Part shown: positions 5,013 through 13,213 of the stretch, in pieces
Layout of the letters: each line of letters opens with the position of its first letter
How positions within the stretch are numbered: position 1 is the first letter of the stretch
Origin: Micromonospora inositola
Lineage (GTDB): Bacteria > Actinomycetota > Actinomycetes > Mycobacteriales > Micromonosporaceae
Direction: 5' to 3'
NCBI RefSeq assembly: GCF_900090285.1
Contig: NZ_LT607754.1
Span: forward strand, 3,436,001-3,500,000
DNA length: 64,000 bases
The notes under the pieces: model-generated
Seen by the model: the letters and a program-made list of their open reading frames with translations, nothing else
Database searches by the model: none
Told to the model about the DNA's origin: nothing
Program-made: the position numbers and the translations under genes

Positions 5013-5041
5013 CGGGGACGGCGGACGCTAGCGTGTTCAGG

Positions 5042-6175
5042 ATGCAGCTTCCGCCGGACCGGAACTATCTGGAGACCCGTCACTGGCGGGTCACCGGCTG
5101 GTTGCTCGCCGCGGTCTGGCTCTTCTTCCTCAATATCCCGCTGCTCGCCGCCCTGCACCAGCCCGAGCCGTGGCGACGGGTGGTCGGCGCGGCGACCCTG
5201 GTCGCCTTCGGCGTCTTGTACGTCTTCGTCTTTCAGTGGGCGCGCGGCCGGCGTCTGGAGCGCCGGGGGATCCCCGTCGCCCGGGCGTGGGCGGCCGTGG
5301 CTTTGCTGCTCGGGCTCGGGCTGGCCGGCATCCCAGGGACCGGCGGCGACTGGTTGACCACCCTGGTCTTCGTCGCCGCGGCGGCGGTGTTCCTGCTGCC
5401 GAGCCGGCAGTCGCTGGTGGTGGTCGCCCTCGCCGCGCTCACCCCGCCGGTGACGGCCGCGCTGGTGCCCGGCTGGGAGGCGGAGGGCACCGTGGTCTTC
5501 GCGGTGCTGCTCGCCTCCTTCGCCATGTTCGGGGTGACCCGGCTGACCCAGCGCAACAGCGAGCTCCAGGCCGCCCAGCAGGAGATCCGCCGGCTGGCGG
5601 TGGCCGAGGAGCGGGCGCGTACCGCCCGGGACCTGCACGACATCCTCGGCCACTCGCTGACCGTGGTGGCGGTGAAGGCCGAGCTGGCCGGCCGGCTGCT
5701 GGAACTGGACCCGGCCCGGGCGGCCACCGAGATCGCCGACGTGGAGCGGCTGGCGCGGGAGGCGCTGGCCGACGTGCGGGGCACCGTCGGGGCGTACCGG
5801 GGGATCAGCCTGGCCGGGGAACTGGCCGGCGCCCGCTCCGCGCTCGCCGCCGCGGGCATCGCCGCGGAGCTGCCGGACACGGCGCCGGAGCTGCCGGCGG
5901 AGCGGGACGAACTCTTCGGCTGGACGGTACGGGAAGGGGTGACCAACGTGGTCCGGCACAGCGGGGCGCGGCGCTGCGTGATCCGGGTGGAACCGGGCCT
6001 GGTCGAGGTCCGTGACGACGGGCGGGGACCCGAAGCGGCGTCGTCCGGGCCGGGCGGGCACGGGCTGGTCGGGCTGCGCGAGCGCGCCCGGCGGCTGGAT
6101 GCCGCGGTCACCGTCGGCCGTCGCCCGGACGGCCCGGGCTTTCTGCTCCGCGTCACCCTCCCGGTCGACCAGTGA
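5042..6175 (+). CDS. NarL-family sensor histidine kinase (DesK-like)
   Basis: 377 residues from ATG at 5042; a GTG at 5033 in frame is an alternative start. Roughly residues 20-165 hold five hydrophobic segments with no large extracellular domain, so it probably senses membrane state or an intramembrane signal. The HisKA_3 dimerisation box is DLHDILGHS with the phosphorylated His at about 199. The HATPase domain follows with N-box VREGVTNVVRHS, G1-type VRDDGRG and GGHGLVGLRERARR. The stop overlaps the response-regulator GTG (GTGA), so the two are coupled. It phosphorylates the regulator encoded next. Confidence 0.93.
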   Translation: MQLPPDRNYLETRHWRVTGWLLAAVWLFFLNIPLLAALHQPEPWRRVVGAATLVAFGVLYVFVFQWARGRRLERRGIPVARAWAAVALLLGLGLAGIPGTGGDWLTTLVFVAAAAVFLLPSRQSLVVVALAALTPPVTAALVPGWEAEGTVVFAVLLASFAMFGVTRLTQRNSELQAAQQEIRRLAVAEERARTARDLHDILGHSLTVVAVKAELAGRLLELDPARAATEIADVERLAREALADVRGTVGAYRGISLAGELAGARSALAAAGIAAELPDTAPELPAERDELFGWTVREGVTNVVRHSGARRCVIRVEPGLVEVRDDGRGPEAASSGPGGHGLVGLRERARRLDAAVTVGRRPDGPGFLLRVTLPVDQ

Positions 6176-6795
6176 CCGAGCCGATCCGGCTGCTGCTCGC
6201 CGACGACCAGGCGCTGGTCCGGGGCGCGCTGGCCGCGTTGCTCTCGCTGGAGCCGGACCTCACTGTGGTCGCGGAGGTGGGGCGGGGCGACGAGGTGGTC
6301 CCCGAGGCCCGCCGTACCACGCCCGACGTGGCCCTGCTCGACGTGGAGATGCCCGGCCTGGACGGGATCGCCGCGACCACCGCGCTGCGCGCCGCCGTGC
6401 CCGGCTGCCGGGTGCTGGTGGTGACCACCTTCGACCGTCCCGGCTACCTGCGGCGGGCGATGGAGGCCGGCGCGAACGGCTTCGTGGTGAAGGACACCCC
6501 GGCCCGGCAGCTCGCCGACGCGGTCCGCCGGGTGCACGCCGGGCTGCGGGTGGTCGATCCCACCCTGGCGGCGGAGACCCTGGCCACCGGGGCCAGTCCG
6601 CTGACCGAGCGAGAGACCGAGGTGCTGCGGACGGCCCGCGGCGGCGGCACGGTGGCCCAGCTCGCCGCCGTGCTGCACCTGTCCGAGGGGACGGTGCGCA
6701 ACCACCTCTCCGCGGCGATCGGCAAGACCGGCGCCCGGAACCGGGCCGACGCGGTGCGCGTCGCCGAGGAGAACGGCTGGCTGCTCGGCGAGTGA
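6172..6795 (+). CDS. LuxR/NarL-family response regulator (DesR-like)
   Basis: 207 residues, GTG start overlapping the kinase stop. Receiver domain (1-120) has the acidic pair DD (11-12), phospho-acceptor Asp57 in LLDVEMPG, and the conserved Lys in VVKDTPA. A LuxR-type helix-turn-helix occupies about 142-205 (LTERETEVLR, LSEGTVRNHLS). It most likely regulates the upstream ABC exporter operon. The downstream gene is convergent (amylase), and the 50 bp between them show no clear hairpin. Confidence 0.94.
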   Translation: MTEPIRLLLADDQALVRGALAALLSLEPDLTVVAEVGRGDEVVPEARRTTPDVALLDVEMPGLDGIAATTALRAAVPGCRVLVVTTFDRPGYLRRAMEAGANGFVVKDTPARQLADAVRRVHAGLRVVDPTLAAETLATGASPLTERETEVLRTARGGGTVAQLAAVLHLSEGTVRNHLSAAIGKTGARNRADAVRVAEENGWLLGE

Positions 6796-8590: not shown

Positions 8591-10168
8591 ATGGCCCGGG
8601 CAGAGCAGAACGAGAAGGCGGCGACCGTCCGGACCACCAGCACCAGTCGAGGTGCCCGGACCCGGTCGAAGTCCGCGATGGTCGCGCTGACCCTGTCCGC
8701 GCTCGCCCTCGCCTGGGCCGGCGTCGAGCTGGCCGGCGCGGGCACCATGATGTACGCGTACGGCTTCTTCTTCACCGAGTTCTTCGCCGGGGTGGTCGCC
8801 CTGGTCTCGCTCAGCCTCACCGTGATGATGGGGCTGCTCGCCACCGACCGGCTGGTGCTGCTGATCCGGCACCGGGTGCTGCTCCAGTCCGCGCACCGGG
8901 CCACCGGCATCCTCGGCGTGGCCGGGCTGGTCGTCCACGTCATCACCAAGATCTCGATCGGCCGGGCCGGGCCGACCGACGCCGTGGTGCCGTTCATCGG
9001 CGGCCGGGGGCTCTACGTCGGACTCGGCACGGTGGCCTCCTTCCTCATGGTCAGCGTGCTCTGGACCGGCCTGATCCGGGTCCGCTTCGCCGGCGTCGGT
9101 CCGAAGTGGCTCTGGCGGGCGCTGCACTCCATGGCGTACGTCTCCTGGCCGTTCGCCCTGATCCACGGCCTCAACGCCGGGCGACCGGCGAAGTCCTGGG
9201 TGGTGGTGAGCTACCTCGCCTGCGTGCTGCTGGTGGTGGCGGCGCTGCTGGTCCGCGTCTCCGTCCACCTCGGCAGGCGCAGCCGGGAGCAGCACCGGGC
9301 CGCCGCGCTGAACCAGGCGATGGCCGGCAGGCCGGCCGAGGAGAGCCGGAGACTCTTCGCCGGCCTGGTCCGCCGGCGCTCCGCCGAGGAGGAGCAGAGC
9401 CGCGCCGGCCGGGGCCGGGAGGGCGGCTGGGCGGAGACCACCGCGACCTCGTGGACCGCGCCGGCCGGCACCGCCCGCCGCCGCGACCCCGACCGGTTCG
9501 CCGTGCCGGTGGTGCCCGAGCCCGGCTCGCTGCGGGAGCCCGTCCGGGCGGCGACCCGGCGCCGGCGCGAGGAGGAGCTGGCGCCGGCCGCGGTACGGCG
9601 GGGCGAGGTCCCGGCGGCCCGCCGCCGGGACGACGAACGGCCGGCCCGGCGACGCGCCGCCGAGCCGGAGCCCGCCAGCCGGGGCCGGGCGGGCGAGCGG
9701 TCCGACCGCCGGTACCGGGACGAGGAAGAGGTTGCCTCCCGACGGTCCCGCGCCGAGGTGGACGCCCGCTACTCGGCGCCGCCGCGGCGGGCGGTCGCGC
9801 CGGAGGAGCCGTGGGACAGCCCGCGGCGGTGGGAGAGCAGCGAACGGCCGGTCTCCGCGGAGCCCAGCTCCGCCGGGCCGATCTCGGCCGGCCCGGTGTC
9901 GGCCGGGCCGATCTCCGCGGCGCCGCGCAGCGGCGGTGGTCGGCACAGCGTCGAGGACGAGGTGCCGGAGGAGCCGGACTACTGGCGGCCGCCGGCCCGG
10001 TACGTCCCGGACGACCTGCCGGTCGACGACACCCCCACCCTGGTCGACCTCGCCTCCCGGCGGGCGCTGCGGGCCTCCGGCGAGAGCCGGTCGTCCCGGC
10101 GGCGCCGGGCCAGCGCGGAGGCGGTCGACGGGGCGTACTGGGCCGGGCTGCGGGGTGAGGCCAGGTGA
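8591..10168 (+). CDS. Ferric-reductase-like heme membrane protein with long charged tail
   Basis: 525 residues. Residues 28-225 contain about six transmembrane helices. Two helices carry spaced histidine pairs, His102/His116 and His179/His192, the pattern of bis-heme b membrane proteins of the ferric reductase / MsrQ / YedZ superfamily. Residues 230-525 are a long Arg/Glu/Ala/Pro-rich cytoplasmic tail of low complexity with no recognisable flavin domain. The stop overlaps the start of the NuoF-like gene (ATGA-type), so the two are coupled. Likely role: transmembrane electron relay fed by the NADH-binding partner. The exact acceptor is unknown. Confidence 0.75.
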   Translation: MARAEQNEKAATVRTTSTSRGARTRSKSAMVALTLSALALAWAGVELAGAGTMMYAYGFFFTEFFAGVVALVSLSLTVMMGLLATDRLVLLIRHRVLLQSAHRATGILGVAGLVVHVITKISIGRAGPTDAVVPFIGGRGLYVGLGTVASFLMVSVLWTGLIRVRFAGVGPKWLWRALHSMAYVSWPFALIHGLNAGRPAKSWVVVSYLACVLLVVAALLVRVSVHLGRRSREQHRAAALNQAMAGRPAEESRRLFAGLVRRRSAEEEQSRAGRGREGGWAETTATSWTAPAGTARRRDPDRFAVPVVPEPGSLREPVRAATRRRREEELAPAAVRRGEVPAARRRDDERPARRRAAEPEPASRGRAGERSDRRYRDEEEVASRRSRAEVDARYSAPPRRAVAPEEPWDSPRRWESSERPVSAEPSSAGPISAGPVSAGPISAAPRSGGGRHSVEDEVPEEPDYWRPPARYVPDDLPVDDTPTLVDLASRRALRASGESRSSRRRRASAEAVDGAYWAGLRGEAR

Positions 10169-11631
10169 TGCGGACGACGGTGCCACCGGTCGCGTGCGTC
10201 GGCGAACCCCGGCTCACCGCCGGCTTCGCCGAGTTCGGCCGGCTCGACCTGCTCGCCCACGAGGAGGTGCACGGCCCGATCGGGCCGATGCAACCGGCCA
10301 GCCTGCTCCGGCTGGCCGAGGCTATCGACCTCAAGGGCAAGGGCGGCGCCGGTTTCCCCTTCGCCCGCAAGCTGCGTGCCGTGCTGGGGTCCTGCGAACG
10401 GCAGAGCCTCTCCGCCGTGGTGGTGGTCAACGCCACCGAGGGGGAGCCGGCGAGCTGGAAGGACAAGGTGCTGCTCACCCGGGCGCCGCACCTGATCCTC
10501 GACGGCGCGGCGCTGGCCGCGTACGCGCTGGACGCCGAGGAGATCGTGATCGGGGTGGCCGACGACGACGTGGGCCGGCCGTCGCTGACCGAGGCGCTGC
10601 AGGAGCGCCGGATGCCGGTGCCGACCAGCATCGTCACCGTGCCGCACCGGTTCATCTCCGGCGAGGGCGGCGCGCTGGTCAACGGCATCAACGGCCTGCC
10701 GCACATCCCGCCCGGGACCAAGAAGCGCTCCAGCGACTCCGGGGTCGGCGGGCTGCCCACCCTGCTCTCCAACGCCGAGACCTTCTCCCAGCTGGCGGTC
10801 GCCGCCCGGCTCGGCCCGTACGAGTACGCCGCACTCGGCACCGACGACGAACCGGGCACCGTGCTGCTCACCGTCACCGGGGCGGCCGCCCGACCGGCGG
10901 TGGTGGAGTGCGCCGCGGGCACCCCGCTGCGGGAGATCCTCGAGCTCTGCGAGGTGCCCGACGGGCCCGGGATCCTGATGGGCGGCTACCACGGCAAGTG
11001 GATCACTCCCGAGGCCGCGGACCGCGCGGAAATCTCCCGCAAGGGGCTGACCGCCGTCGGCGGCACCCTCGGCGCCGGCATCATCGTCCCGCTCGGCCGG
11101 GACACCTGCCCGCTCGGCGAGGCCGCCCAGGTGGTCCGCTACCTGGCCGGCGAGTCCGCCGGGCAGTGCGGGCCGTGCAAGATGGGCCTGCCCGACCTGG
11201 CCCGCGCCGTCGACCTCGCGGTCTCCGGCAGCGCCCCGGTCGAGATCGTCCGGGCCGCGGCCGGCGACGTGAAGGGGCGCGGCGCGTGCAGCCACCCGGA
11301 CGGCACCGCACGGTTCGCCCTCTCCGCGCTGGAGGTCTTCGCCGAGGACCTGCGGCTGCACACCACCGGCGAGGGCTGCGGCAAGCGGGTCACGGGCGTG
11401 ATGGGACTGCCCGGGGCGCCCGACGTGAACCCGCAGAAGCTCACCCTGGACTGGTCCCGGTGCGACGGGCACGGGCTCTGCGCGCACGTGGTGCCGGACT
11501 TCATCCGGCTCGACGCCAACGGTTACCCGGCCTTCCCGCCCACCCCGGTGCCGACCTGGCTGCGGGAGGGCGCGCTCAAGGCGGTCAAGGTCTGTCCCGA
11601 ACTCGCGCTCAGGCTCGCCAGGGCCGAGTAG
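10165..11631 (+). CDS. NuoF-like NADH-binding Fe-S flavoprotein with C-terminal ferredoxin
   Basis: 488 residues. The complex I 51-kDa (NuoF) fold is indicated by the glycine-rich GKGGAGFPF (about 58-66), the NATEGEPASWKD segment, a soluble-ligand-binding block (HGKWI) and an Fe-S region ESAGQCGPC (Cys335, Cys338) plus Cys375. Classical NuoF has ESCGxCxPC; here the first Cys is Ala, and Cys315 (DTCPLGE) lies nearby. Residues 425-485 form a single-cluster ferredoxin: Cys433-x5-Cys439 and Cys477-Pro. Not part of a nuo operon, so it is a stand-alone NADH dehydrogenase module. Context suggests it feeds the heme membrane protein, CcdA or the TlpA partner. Confidence 0.8.
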   Translation: MMRTTVPPVACVGEPRLTAGFAEFGRLDLLAHEEVHGPIGPMQPASLLRLAEAIDLKGKGGAGFPFARKLRAVLGSCERQSLSAVVVVNATEGEPASWKDKVLLTRAPHLILDGAALAAYALDAEEIVIGVADDDVGRPSLTEALQERRMPVPTSIVTVPHRFISGEGGALVNGINGLPHIPPGTKKRSSDSGVGGLPTLLSNAETFSQLAVAARLGPYEYAALGTDDEPGTVLLTVTGAAARPAVVECAAGTPLREILELCEVPDGPGILMGGYHGKWITPEAADRAEISRKGLTAVGGTLGAGIIVPLGRDTCPLGEAAQVVRYLAGESAGQCGPCKMGLPDLARAVDLAVSGSAPVEIVRAAAGDVKGRGACSHPDGTARFALSALEVFAEDLRLHTTGEGCGKRVTGVMGLPGAPDVNPQKLTLDWSRCDGHGLCAHVVPDFIRLDANGYPAFPPTPVPTWLREGALKAVKVCPELALRLARAE

Positions 11632-11651
11632 CCGACCGAGAGGAGACGCGG

Positions 11652-12236
11652 ATGTCGCGTCGTACGTCAGCGCCGACCCGGGCGGTCCGGTCCGGACGCC
11701 TGGTCACCGCGGCCGTGCTGGTCGCCGCGCTGCTGGGCGCGGCCTCCTGCGCGGTCGGCCCGGAGCCGGGGGCGCCGGTGGGCGCGGTCGCCGCCGCCTC
11801 GCCCGCCGCCGCGCCGGTGGTCCCGGCCCGGGTGCCGGAAACGCTGAAGTTCACCGCGAAGACCCTCGACGGTACGCGGTTCTCCGCCGCCGAGCTGGCC
11901 GGCAAGCCGGTGGTGCTCTGGTTCTGGGCGCCCTGGTGCGCCACCTGCGCCAGTCAGGCGTGGACGGTCGCCGAGATCGCGCCGAAGTACCGGGACACCG
12001 TGCCGATCGTCGGCGTCGCCGGCCTGGGCGAGCAGCAGGCGATGAACGAGTTCGTCACCGAGTTCGACCTGGCCGGCACCCCCCAGCTCGACGATCGGGC
12101 CGGCACGCTGTGGCGCCGGTTCGAGGTGGTCGAGCAGAGCACCTTCCTGATCATCGACCGGAACGGCCGGGTCGTCCACCAGGGCTTCCTCGACGGCGAG
12201 TCCCTCAGCCGGCGGGTCGCCGCGCTGGCCGGATGA
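11652..12236 (+). CDS. TlpA/ResA-like thioredoxin-fold lipoprotein
   Basis: 194 residues from ATG at 11652, preceded by an AGGAG ribosome site. The N-terminus is basic then hydrophobic and ends in a lipobox LLGAASC, so the protein should be lipid-anchored outside the membrane. After an Ala/Pro linker the redoxin domain (about 60-194) contains the active site FWAPWCATC. Such proteins reduce or exchange disulfides in exported proteins or apocytochrome c. The stop overlaps the ccdA start (ATGA), and CcdA is the usual electron donor for this class, which supports an extracytoplasmic reductant pair. Confidence 0.88.
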   Translation: MSRRTSAPTRAVRSGRLVTAAVLVAALLGAASCAVGPEPGAPVGAVAAASPAAAPVVPARVPETLKFTAKTLDGTRFSAAELAGKPVVLWFWAPWCATCASQAWTVAEIAPKYRDTVPIVGVAGLGEQQAMNEFVTEFDLAGTPQLDDRAGTLWRRFEVVEQSTFLIIDRNGRVVHQGFLDGESLSRRVAALAG

Positions 12237-13213
12237 TGACCACCCCGCTGCTGCTCGCGCTGACCGCCGGCATGCTCGGCGCGGTCAACCCGTGCGGCTT
12301 CGCGATGCTGCCCGCGTACCTGTCGCTGCTGGTCGCCGGCCCGCCGGACAGGCGCGGCGCGGTCGGCCGCGCGCTCACCGCGACCGCCGGGCTGACCCTC
12401 GGCTACGTCGTGGTGTTCGGCGCGTTCGGCCTCGCCCTGGCGCCGCTGGCGGACCGGCTGCGCCCCCGGCTGCCCTGGACCACCGTGACGCTCGGCCTGC
12501 TGCTGGCCGCCGTCGGCTGCTGGCTGCTCGCCGGCCAGCGGCTGCCCACCCCGCGCCCGTTCGCCCGGGCGCCCCGGCTGAGCCGTTCCTGGGCGTCCAT
12601 GGCGCTCTTCGGCATGGCGTACGCGCTGGCCTCGTTGACGTGCACGATCGCCCCGTTCCTGGCCATTGTGGTGACCAGCCTCCAGGCCGGCTCGACGCTG
12701 CGCGGGCTGGCGCTCTTCGGGGCGTACGCGGTCGGGATGGGGCTGGTGGTCGCGGTGGCCGCGCTCGGCGTGGCGCTGCTGCGCGGCCAGGTGGTGGCCC
12801 GGCTGCGCGGCGCCGGCGCGCTCGTGCCCCGGCTGAGCGGCCTGGTGCTGCTCGTCGCCGGCGGCTACGTCGCCTGGTACGGCTGGTACGAGGTCCGGCT
12901 CGCGCTGGGCCGGCACGACGCCTTCGGCGACCCGGTCGTGGTGGCCGCGGGCCGGGTCCAGCAGGCCCTGTCCGCCGGGCTGGACGCGGCCGGCCCGGCG
13001 GTCCTCGCGGTGGCCCTGGTCGCGCTGCTGCTGGTGGCCCTGCCGCGGCGGGCGACGGCCGCGGCCCGGCGCGGCGGGCCCGCCGTCAGCCTGGACCCGG
13101 ATCGGGTCCCGCGGCGCGCGCAGGGAGGTGCCGAGCCGGGCCGGGACGACGAACGGCGGGCGTCGGGAGGACCCGACGCCCGCCGTTCGGGTGCGGTCAG
13201 CGGACCGGCGTGA
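12233..13213 (+). CDS. ccdA: CcdA/DsbD-like transmembrane thiol-disulfide transporter
   Basis: 326 residues, ATG overlapping the TlpA stop; a second ATG follows directly. Six or more hydrophobic helices. The two conserved cysteines of the CcdA family are in NPCGF (near the N-terminus) and in LTCTIAPF (helix 4), and they shuttle electrons from cytoplasmic thioredoxin to outer partners. The protein is longer than usual CcdA (about 240 residues): the last 50 residues are a hydrophilic Arg/Gly/Pro tail whose coding sequence contains the terminator hairpin at 13150-13189. The stop lies 17 bp into the convergent serS gene, so the tail may be an accidental extension. Confidence 0.88.
   Translation: MMTTPLLLALTAGMLGAVNPCGFAMLPAYLSLLVAGPPDRRGAVGRALTATAGLTLGYVVVFGAFGLALAPLADRLRPRLPWTTVTLGLLLAAVGCWLLAGQRLPTPRPFARAPRLSRSWASMALFGMAYALASLTCTIAPFLAIVVTSLQAGSTLRGLALFGAYAVGMGLVVAVAALGVALLRGQVVARLRGAGALVPRLSGLVLLVAGGYVAWYGWYEVRLALGRHDAFGDPVVVAAGRVQQALSAGLDAAGPAVLAVALVALLLVALPRRATAAARRGGPAVSLDPDRVPRRAQGGAEPGRDDERRASGGPDARRSGAVSGPA
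13150..13189. terminator. Bidirectional terminator between ccdA and serS
   Basis: Perfect 18-bp inverted repeat (13150-13167 with 13172-13189) and a 4-base loop AGGA. It sits where the two convergent genes meet, inside the last codons of ccdA and just beyond the serS stop. No T-run follows, as is usual in high-GC actinobacteria. Confidence 0.75.

Follow-up and report, generated by a model that had tools for sequence, protein, structure and literature searches.

MsrQ-like gene clusters are broadly conserved in Actinobacteria, and 31 of those reported include a NuoF-like protein with a PF10589 domain; by the design of that search they always lie within flavinylation clusters, and at least a subset has been proposed to use NAD(P)H (PMC8238504, in the sections available). 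MsrQ together with Fre has an architecture that mimics NADPH oxidase (NOX), and a His-X12/14-His pattern has been used in a search for bacterial NOX proteins (PMC5676040, accessible portion). On the thiol side, Mycobacterium tuberculosis DsbE (Rv2878c) is listed in an operon with Rv2877c, its proposed membrane partner, and DsbE and DsbF are reported as oxidants (PMC3853704 and PMC3792642, each in excerpt). Here we analyzed a four-gene locus at positions 8591-13213 of a 64,000-nucleotide stretch of the Micromonospora inositola genome (hereafter the window; C1:3436001-3500000 of a 6.7-Mb single contig), which encodes an MsrQ/ferric-reductase-like membrane protein, a NuoF-like dehydrogenase, a TlpA/DsbE-like lipoprotein and a CcdA-like membrane protein. 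We consider it probable, though well short of certain, that genes 1 and 2 form a conserved electron-export pair and that genes 3 and 4 are a separable DsbE-CcdA-like thiol module, likely fed via CcdA.

The four genes lie in the same direction. Gene 1 (8591-10168, + strand, 525 residues) and gene 2 (10165-11631, + strand, 488 residues from a GTG start) make up the first module. An alternative ATG of gene 2 at 10168 shares one base with the gene 1 stop codon, and the NuoF-like NAD(P)H dehydrogenase with its fused C-terminal ferredoxin is accordingly listed as 10168-11631 (+ strand). After the sole gap, of 20 nt, comes the second module: gene 3 (11652-12236, + strand, 194 residues) and gene 4 (12233-13213, + strand, 326 residues), joined by an ATGA overlap of 4 nt. 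The first-pass annotation of this DNA had called the genes overlapping or tightly spaced, as the overlaps of 1 (or 4) and 4 nt confirm. Its gene identities also hold, through Pfam for genes 2 to 4 and through histidines, fold and homologue names for gene 1, and its NADH/Fe-S input with a membrane heme relay survives as a NAD(P)H/Fe-S/heme relay whose hemes are predicted. All four genes look to be under purifying selection, since the median NG86 ratios of nonsynonymous to synonymous substitution against 12 Micromonospora relatives are 0.17 for the NuoF-like gene, 0.38 for TlpA, 0.38 for CcdA and 0.50 for the membrane domain of gene 1.

The product of gene 2 matches PF01512 (the Complex1_51K domain, which binds flavin mononucleotide, FMN), PF10589 (NADH_4Fe-4S) and, at its C terminus, the single-cluster ferredoxin family PF13459. 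Its AlphaFold2 (AF2) model has a predicted local distance difference test score (pLDDT) of 89.1 and matches NfnB, HydB and the complex I 51-kDa subunit in Foldseek. It is not the NuoF of complex I, because it scores 145 bits against an NCBIfam NuoF cut-off of 558.65 and because a second, distant NuoF-type match lies at C1:1560444-1561583, which we take to be the complex I subunit of this genome. We aligned 200 family members, near-copies among them, with this second protein. In the N3-type motif A332-x2-C335-x2-C338 (11158-11178, + strand) the first ligand cysteine is replaced by alanine: the position holds cysteine in none of the 200 rows (191 Ala, 7 Ser, 1 Thr, 1 gap) and does so in the genome's own NuoF. 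The remaining three N3 cysteines are present in 199, 198 and 197 rows, the fourth ligand being retained in C375-x-H377 (GRGACSHPDG; 11287-11295, + strand) beside a new conserved histidine (His377 in 195 rows, Leu in the genome's own NuoF). Two more residues at 11359-11379 (+ strand) are newly conserved and are candidates for the missing cluster ligand, namely His399 (199 rows; Tyr in the own NuoF) and Cys405 (191 rows; Ala in the own NuoF). A further cysteine, C315 (11107-11109), 20 residues ahead of C335, is conserved in 199 rows and in the own NuoF alike. The FMN-site residues Asn89, Glu92 and Glu94 are conserved except for gaps, with Glu92 as Asp in two rows.

The fused ferredoxin domain carries C433-x2-H436-x2-C439 ... 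C477 (11443-11613, + strand; PF13459). Rows were called fused by three ferredoxin cysteines, which makes these cysteines invariant by construction, as is not the case for His436. At the second glutamate of the GEE motif, all 171 fused rows have Gly, Ala or Ser, compared with Glu in 15 of the 29 other rows. This replacement makes NADPH a plausible donor: the second glutamate is presumably the residue that excludes NADPH in Escherichia coli NuoF, a lead for which our literature search found no paper.

Six long helices, taken as membrane helices, are predicted in residues 1-267 of gene 1 (AF2 on 36 sequences, mean pLDDT 85.5). They include two predicted heme-ligand pairs, His102-X13-His116 (8894-8938, + strand) and His179-X12-His192 (9125-9166, + strand), each invariant in 77 of 77 aligned rows, and the two-pair His-X12/14-His pattern of PMC5676040, as given in its accessible portion, is thus found in all 77. 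The best Foldseek matches are SpNOX (the Streptococcus pneumoniae NOX), NOX5 and STEAP4, with probabilities of 0.99-1.00, template modelling (TM) scores of 0.33-0.40 and E of at least 0.011; the top five are all NOX or STEAP proteins (probability 0.98-1.00, E 0.011 or worse). Some close homologues are named 'ferric reductase-like transmembrane' in databases and others 'hypothetical protein'. Because PF01794 (Ferric_reduct) is reached by only 11 of 36 aligned relatives, and not by the window protein, it is the histidines, the fold and some of these homologue names that carry the assignment, and we predict from histidine pattern and fold that gene 1 is a bis-heme protein. The rest of the protein is a C-terminal tail of 280 residues (9326-10165, + strand) rich in Arg, Ala, Glu and Pro (20% Arg, 16% Ala), which is probably disordered; called lengths of gene 1 relatives range from 177 to 682 residues.

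This fold raises the possibility of a two-subunit enzyme like NADPH oxidase or ferric reductase, in which O2 or Fe(III) chelates would take electrons from the outer heme without a protein partner. The structural matches of gene 1 favor it, and so does the published likeness of MsrQ and Fre to NOX (PMC5676040, same portion). Gene 1 consists of a membrane domain and a low-complexity tail, without the FAD- and NADPH-binding domains that a NOX has in the same polypeptide. We regard such an enzyme as unlikely, and the genomic neighbors described below bear on it from both sides.

The pair recurs well beyond this genome. Among 296 genomes of the phylum, close orthologues of gene 2 (47-89%) come from Micromonospora and from one genus that is Streptomyces-like by leuS synteny. 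A NuoF-like gene is present in 53 of the 61 Micromonospora genomes; across the family, a cut-off of E <= 1e-60 finds it in 51 of 101 genomes, five of which have only a paralogue of about 42%. We searched around 120 NuoF-like loci with tblastn (20 from the top of the ranked orthologue list and 100 further; identities of linked copies are local) and found gene 1 in 111, TlpA in 55 and CcdA in 45. Likewise, gene 1 adjoins the NuoF-like gene in 76 of 80 named loci, these being the best 80 of 571 relatives; of the other four, three are close to the end of a contig and the last (L266) yielded no gene call that could be used. Within the same best 80 of 571, TlpA was called in 13 loci only, from Micromonospora, Actinoplanes, Paractinoplanes, Pseudosporangium and Spirilliplanes. 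The first module recurs in Micromonosporaceae, Streptomyces and Streptosporangiales.

To compare neighborhoods, genes within 5.5 kb of 193 loci were clustered (7 of an initial 200 were dropped for want of a usable call of the NuoF gene; 184 of those kept have gene 1). Single linkage at 80% identity sorts the loci into 59 NuoF groups, of which 55 contain gene 1; the groups are not independent events. TlpA/CcdA stands beside the pair in 2 of the 55. The proposal of a single four-part pathway is not supported by these counts, and we reject a four-gene pathway conserved across actinobacteria: the gene order that the first-pass annotation had wanted checked is co-conserved for genes 1 and 2, and genes 3 and 4 come and go between species.

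In the single pathway, TlpA would take electrons straight from the membrane hemes and CcdA would assist, so that NADH keeps exported disulfides reduced. The close packing of all four genes in most Micromonospora and several Actinoplanes-type genomes agrees with it, but 53 of the 55 groups with the pair show no TlpA, and TlpA-CcdA is present in genomes without a NuoF-like gene. We read 13 loci (L163-L175) in which ccdA of this type lies away from the pair in Micromonospora; 12 have an adjoining tlpA, and four such genomes (G309, G319, G336 and G341) are without the pair, meaning that they have no NuoF-like match at E <= 1e-60, gene 1 itself not having been searched for in them. These unlinked copies are often near hemE-, hemY-, hemQ- and msrB-like genes, as read from the sequence (L163, L164, L166-L169, L172 and L175). 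To our knowledge, there is no precedent for the transfer from a one-electron heme to a two-electron disulfide, which also counts against a single pathway.

TlpA instead seems to follow CcdA. Of 53 Micromonospora pair loci, 41 have linked TlpA and CcdA, 8 have linked TlpA with CcdA elsewhere, 3 have neither and 1 has a ccdA remnant only; in this count G448, G434 and G417, which lie outside the survey of second ccdA genes, are scored as none, and G296 and G347, at contig ends, are excluded. Each of the 49 loci with linked TlpA therefore has a CcdA of this type, linked in 41 and elsewhere in 8, and the 3 loci in genomes without any such CcdA are also without linked TlpA, although a single joint deletion would look alike. 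Of the 12 loci without an intact linked ccdA, 8 have a second ccdA elsewhere, and 7 of these 8 retain an intact linked TlpA. This last count can be enlisted for a direct heme-to-TlpA step, as can the fact that TlpA/CcdA never shares a NuoF group with other outside partners, as if there were one slot; the tie of TlpA to CcdA in the 49 loci and its absence in the 3 CcdA-less genomes weigh the other way, and we judge the single pathway to be distinctly improbable. Linked and unlinked ccdA are seldom found together (2 of 42 versus 8 of 11; Fisher p = 7e-6, uncorrected for descent). On the NuoF tree, linked ccdA undergoes about nine state changes, six of them forced by well-supported branches, and in six independent pairs unlinked ccdA moves oppositely in 4.4 on average and the same way in 0.0, so that a replacement of one by the other is suggestive. 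It would thus seem that TlpA requires a CcdA, whether encoded next to it or elsewhere, and for this reason a route from cytosolic thioredoxin through CcdA to TlpA fits better than a heme route. TlpA-CcdA is a movable module. Broken copies also occur: a ccdA remnant without tlpA (L055), a degraded tlpA (L077) and a tlpA without its active-site part beside ccdA (L089).

The proteins of this module are of familiar types. TlpA matches redoxin families and has a lipobox-type Cys33, by which it is predicted to be a lipoprotein, and a WCATC active site with cysteines 96 and 99. Among solved structures, on which this closeness was judged, it is closest to DsbE/DsbF, the nearest relatives being M. tuberculosis DsbF (3ios, E 9.7e-32) and MPT53/DsbE (1lu4, E 2.4e-22), and it adjoins the CcdA-like gene. 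That gene is barely above the PF02683 cut-off (27.7 versus 27.1 bits). It has Cys21 in NPCGF and Cys137 in SLTC, one cysteine in each of these motifs being the usual CcdA pair; NPCGF is found in 42 of 45 linked CcdA copies, and the best segments of the other three begin downstream of the motif.

The names TlpA and CcdA invite a role in cytochrome c maturation, in which TlpA-CcdA would reduce apocytochromes with electrons supplied by the pair, and our genome search with PF02683 listed the window CcdA only. That search was incomplete: it missed a canonical CcdA that scores 30.1 bits when scanned directly, and we reject the window gene as the genome's only CcdA and hence the one for cytochrome c. 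ResB occurs once in this genome, at C1:1613156, with its own ResA and CcdA (L182), in an operon that reads HemL, phosphoglycerate-mutase-like, ResA-like, CcdA, ResB and CcsA/B-type. The order is listed likewise for M. tuberculosis (PMC3792642, in excerpt), and a HemL-...-ResA-CcdA-ResB-CcsB-type operon stands apart from genes 1 to 4 at all 7 ResB loci read, in this genome and 6 others. No linkage to ResB or to CcsA/CcsB was found at the locus of genes 3 and 4. Electrons to c-type apocytochromes, as first suggested, are hence unlikely, and we hold a maturation role for the four genes to be extremely improbable.

What stands outside the membrane next to the pair differs by lineage. Across the 55 groups, ApbE is the neighboring class in 17, a DUF1996/DUF4142/Lipoprotein_15-type protein in 13 (3 of them weak), TlpA/CcdA in 2 and none of these in 23, with no group holding two classes. 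ApbE is a same-strand neighbor in 18 groups, 17 of them with gene 1, and PF02424 was matched in 5 of 5 scanned. The DUF1996 cluster comprises 16 genes from 12 groups, every one on the same strand, and Pfam DUF1996 is matched in 5 of 7 scanned, missing L112 and L117. DUF4142 is represented by 9 genes from 9 groups (same strand for 8; Pfam match in 3 of 3 scanned) and Lipoprotein_15 by a neighbor in 4 groups (2 of 2 scanned). The weak groups are those of L111-L114 and L117, where the gene resembles DUF1996 proteins in its N-terminal region only and L112 and L117 have no Pfam match, and that of L142, whose partner gene is 4.6 kb distant; in L236, L251 and L252 a gene called on the opposite strand separates the DUF1996/DUF4142/Lipoprotein_15-type gene from gene 1. 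At seven loci (L137, L203, L204, L241, L251, L252 and L257) DUF4142 and DUF1996, in some with Lipoprotein_15, together adjoin the pair. These families may be partners of the pair. Other recurrent neighbors reflect lineage-wide synteny (leuS in Streptomyces) or belong to promiscuous-looking clusters of regulators, short-chain dehydrogenases and the like. For an oxidase or ferric reductase, the 23 groups without an outside partner of these classes are as expected, whereas the recurrent secreted-protein neighbors (the DUF1996 cluster in 12 groups, DUF4142 in 9) suggest protein partners in several lineages.

The ferredoxin varies together with the partner. It is fused in 166 of 167 non-ApbE loci versus 0 of 17 ApbE loci, and at 15 of the 17 a ferredoxin-like gene or motif stands apart within 4 kb, immediately downstream in 14 and upstream on the other strand in 1; in the other 2 of 17 none was found within that distance. 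The separate ferredoxin of one ApbE locus (L260) matches PF13459. Because the ferredoxin occurs both fused and as a neighbor, an order of NuoF core, ferredoxin and membrane cytochrome is supported. We rejected FMN_bind as the neighbor of ApbE in L259 and L260, where the small upstream proteins have no such domain. Directly upstream of ApbE in L263, L265 and L268 are small Ser/Thr-rich, secreted-looking proteins that end in STSGAS, with no FMN-binding domain by eye; those of L259, L260 and L264 have other C-terminal ends. An [S/T]GA[S/T]-like motif is the site of ApbE flavinylation (PMC8238504, in the sections available), and the STSGAS-ending proteins are possibly minimal ApbE substrates, judging by their sequence.

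The sequences show which domains the proteins contain, that certain histidines and cysteines are invariant, that genes 1 and 2 are conserved as a pair, that the ferredoxin is fused in one branch and a separate neighbor in most loci of the other, that outside partner genes are exchanged between lineages and that the thiol module also occurs apart from the pair; which way the electrons flow, by which cofactors and from NAD(P)H, we infer. NAD(P)H would reduce FMN bound in gene 2, and single electrons would then pass from the odd Fe-S cluster and the fused ferredoxin domain into gene 1, first to its inner and then to its outer heme, which would deliver them to an outside acceptor that depends on the lineage or is a small molecule. 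We take the pair for an all-purpose exporter of electrons that different lineages would couple to different outside partners: flavinylation (ApbE) genes in some, secreted DUF1996, DUF4142 and Lipoprotein_15 proteins in others, and a DsbE-like protein in Micromonospora and Actinoplanes-type genera. The thiol module would likely be supplied by cytosolic thioredoxin through CcdA, and in the latter genera both modules would probably serve a common envelope process without electrons passing from heme to disulfide.

Several observations weigh against this account of an export pair and a separable thiol module. By E-value the structural matches of gene 1 are weak (none below 0.001), with a TM score of about 0.4, and its own sequence has no Pfam family match. 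With the second glutamate of the NADH site lost from the fused branch, the donor may be another molecule. Partner classes follow clades, which makes their exclusiveness a pattern and not a statistical test, and the 23 groups without these classes within 5.5 kb may use a small-molecule acceptor (O2, Fe(III) or quinone). The sign test for ccdA replacement is not significant (median p 0.125). Finally, the same partner swapping is also readable as TlpA being the acceptor in Micromonospora. A bolder reading is a universal NuoF-ferredoxin/MsrQ plug-in that powers chemistry beyond the actinobacterial membrane, with a different outlet in each lineage (a flavinylated peptide, a DUF1996/DUF4142/Lipoprotein_15 set or a DsbE-like protein), run by NADPH, its cluster held by three cysteines and a new His or Cys, whose outer heme in Micromonospora reduces the exported disulfide protein directly. 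If true, that direct heme-to-disulfide step would be one not seen before; we find this combination very doubtful.

None of the four genes is an ApbE or FMN-binding gene, and the genome's three FMN_bind hits and its ApbE hits, in four places, lie at a great distance from them. Beside each of three other Ferric_reduct + NAD_binding_1 proteins (L176-L178) there are FMN_bind and ApbE hits, and for this reason flavinylated export probably exists in parallel in this genome; the fourth ApbE hit, at C1:463331, has no FMN_bind hit nearby. Five DUF4142 hits occur elsewhere in the genome. A DUF1996 search of it gave no match, and neither did its controls.

Around the locus, as read from the sequence, the 5' flank is an alpha-amylase-like gene on the opposite strand, pointing away, and the 3' flank a convergent serS-like gene. 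Upstream of the alpha-amylase-like gene are a sensor-kinase-like open reading frame (5033-6175) and a response-regulator-like one (6172-6795). A perfect inverted repeat at 13150-13189 (no strand assigned; 18-nt arms, 4-nt loop) lies in the 3' end of ccdA ahead of serS and is a possible shared terminator for the two genes; a scan for T-run terminators does not list it.

If an export pair of this kind is real, many actinobacteria, including the antibiotic producers Streptomyces and Micromonospora, would have a common uncharacterised NAD(P)H-to-envelope route. Its signature would be a fused ferredoxin together with the three-cysteine motif A-x2-C-x2-C ... GRGACxHPDG of the NuoF-like protein. The neighbors exchanged between lineages are concrete candidates for the process that it powers, including the secreted DUF1996, DUF4142 and Lipoprotein_15 proteins, whose function is unknown according to Pfam. 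The case of TlpA-CcdA cautions against taking gene adjacency for a pathway.

Set beside known systems, gene 2 has the fold and the Complex1_51K and NADH_4Fe-4S domains of complex I NuoF, HydB and NfnB; unlike these, it has no first N3 cysteine and carries a fused ferredoxin, and its operon has no NuoE gene. Gene 1 resembles MsrPQ with Fre, and SpNOX (PMC5676040, accessible portion), in its two His-X12/14-His pairs, in a predicted six-helix membrane domain and in a presumed cytosolic flavoprotein donor, but here the donor would be a NuoF-ferredoxin protein and not of the FNR type, there is no MsrP in the operon, and the parts are not one fused polypeptide. In the thiol module, TlpA is nearest among solved structures to M. 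tuberculosis DsbF and MPT53/DsbE and adjoins a CcdA-like gene, much as DsbE is listed with its proposed membrane partner Rv2877c, yet the excerpts of PMC3853704 and PMC3792642 name neither NuoF nor MsrQ-like genes beside them. System II ResA-CcdA comprises the same two protein types as genes 3 and 4, but its canonical set is a separate operon here (L182). Among the best matches in the open-licence literature, no paper was found on DUF4142, DUF1996 or Lipoprotein_15 with a cytochrome, none for five guessed neighboring Streptomyces coelicolor locus tags, and none beyond PMC8238504 on a NuoF-like/cytochrome pair in actinobacteria; TlpA and DUF4142 have 0 occurrences in the available main text of PMC8238504, and NuoF has 0 in that of its follow-up (PMC11334425). 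The flavinylation clusters of PMC8238504 are among the closest systems described. There too, in the sections available, MsrQ-like cytochrome and NuoF-like genes stand side by side, but those clusters are defined by ApbE or FMN-binding genes, whereas this operon is without them, has its ferredoxin fused and has other outside genes. The claim of an undescribed system accordingly stands in part: the MsrQ-like and NuoF-like pairing is itself already in print, for the 31 flavinylation clusters. What is new, as far as these searches go, is the branch that lacks ApbE and has its ferredoxin fused, with partners of its own and a changed cluster motif.

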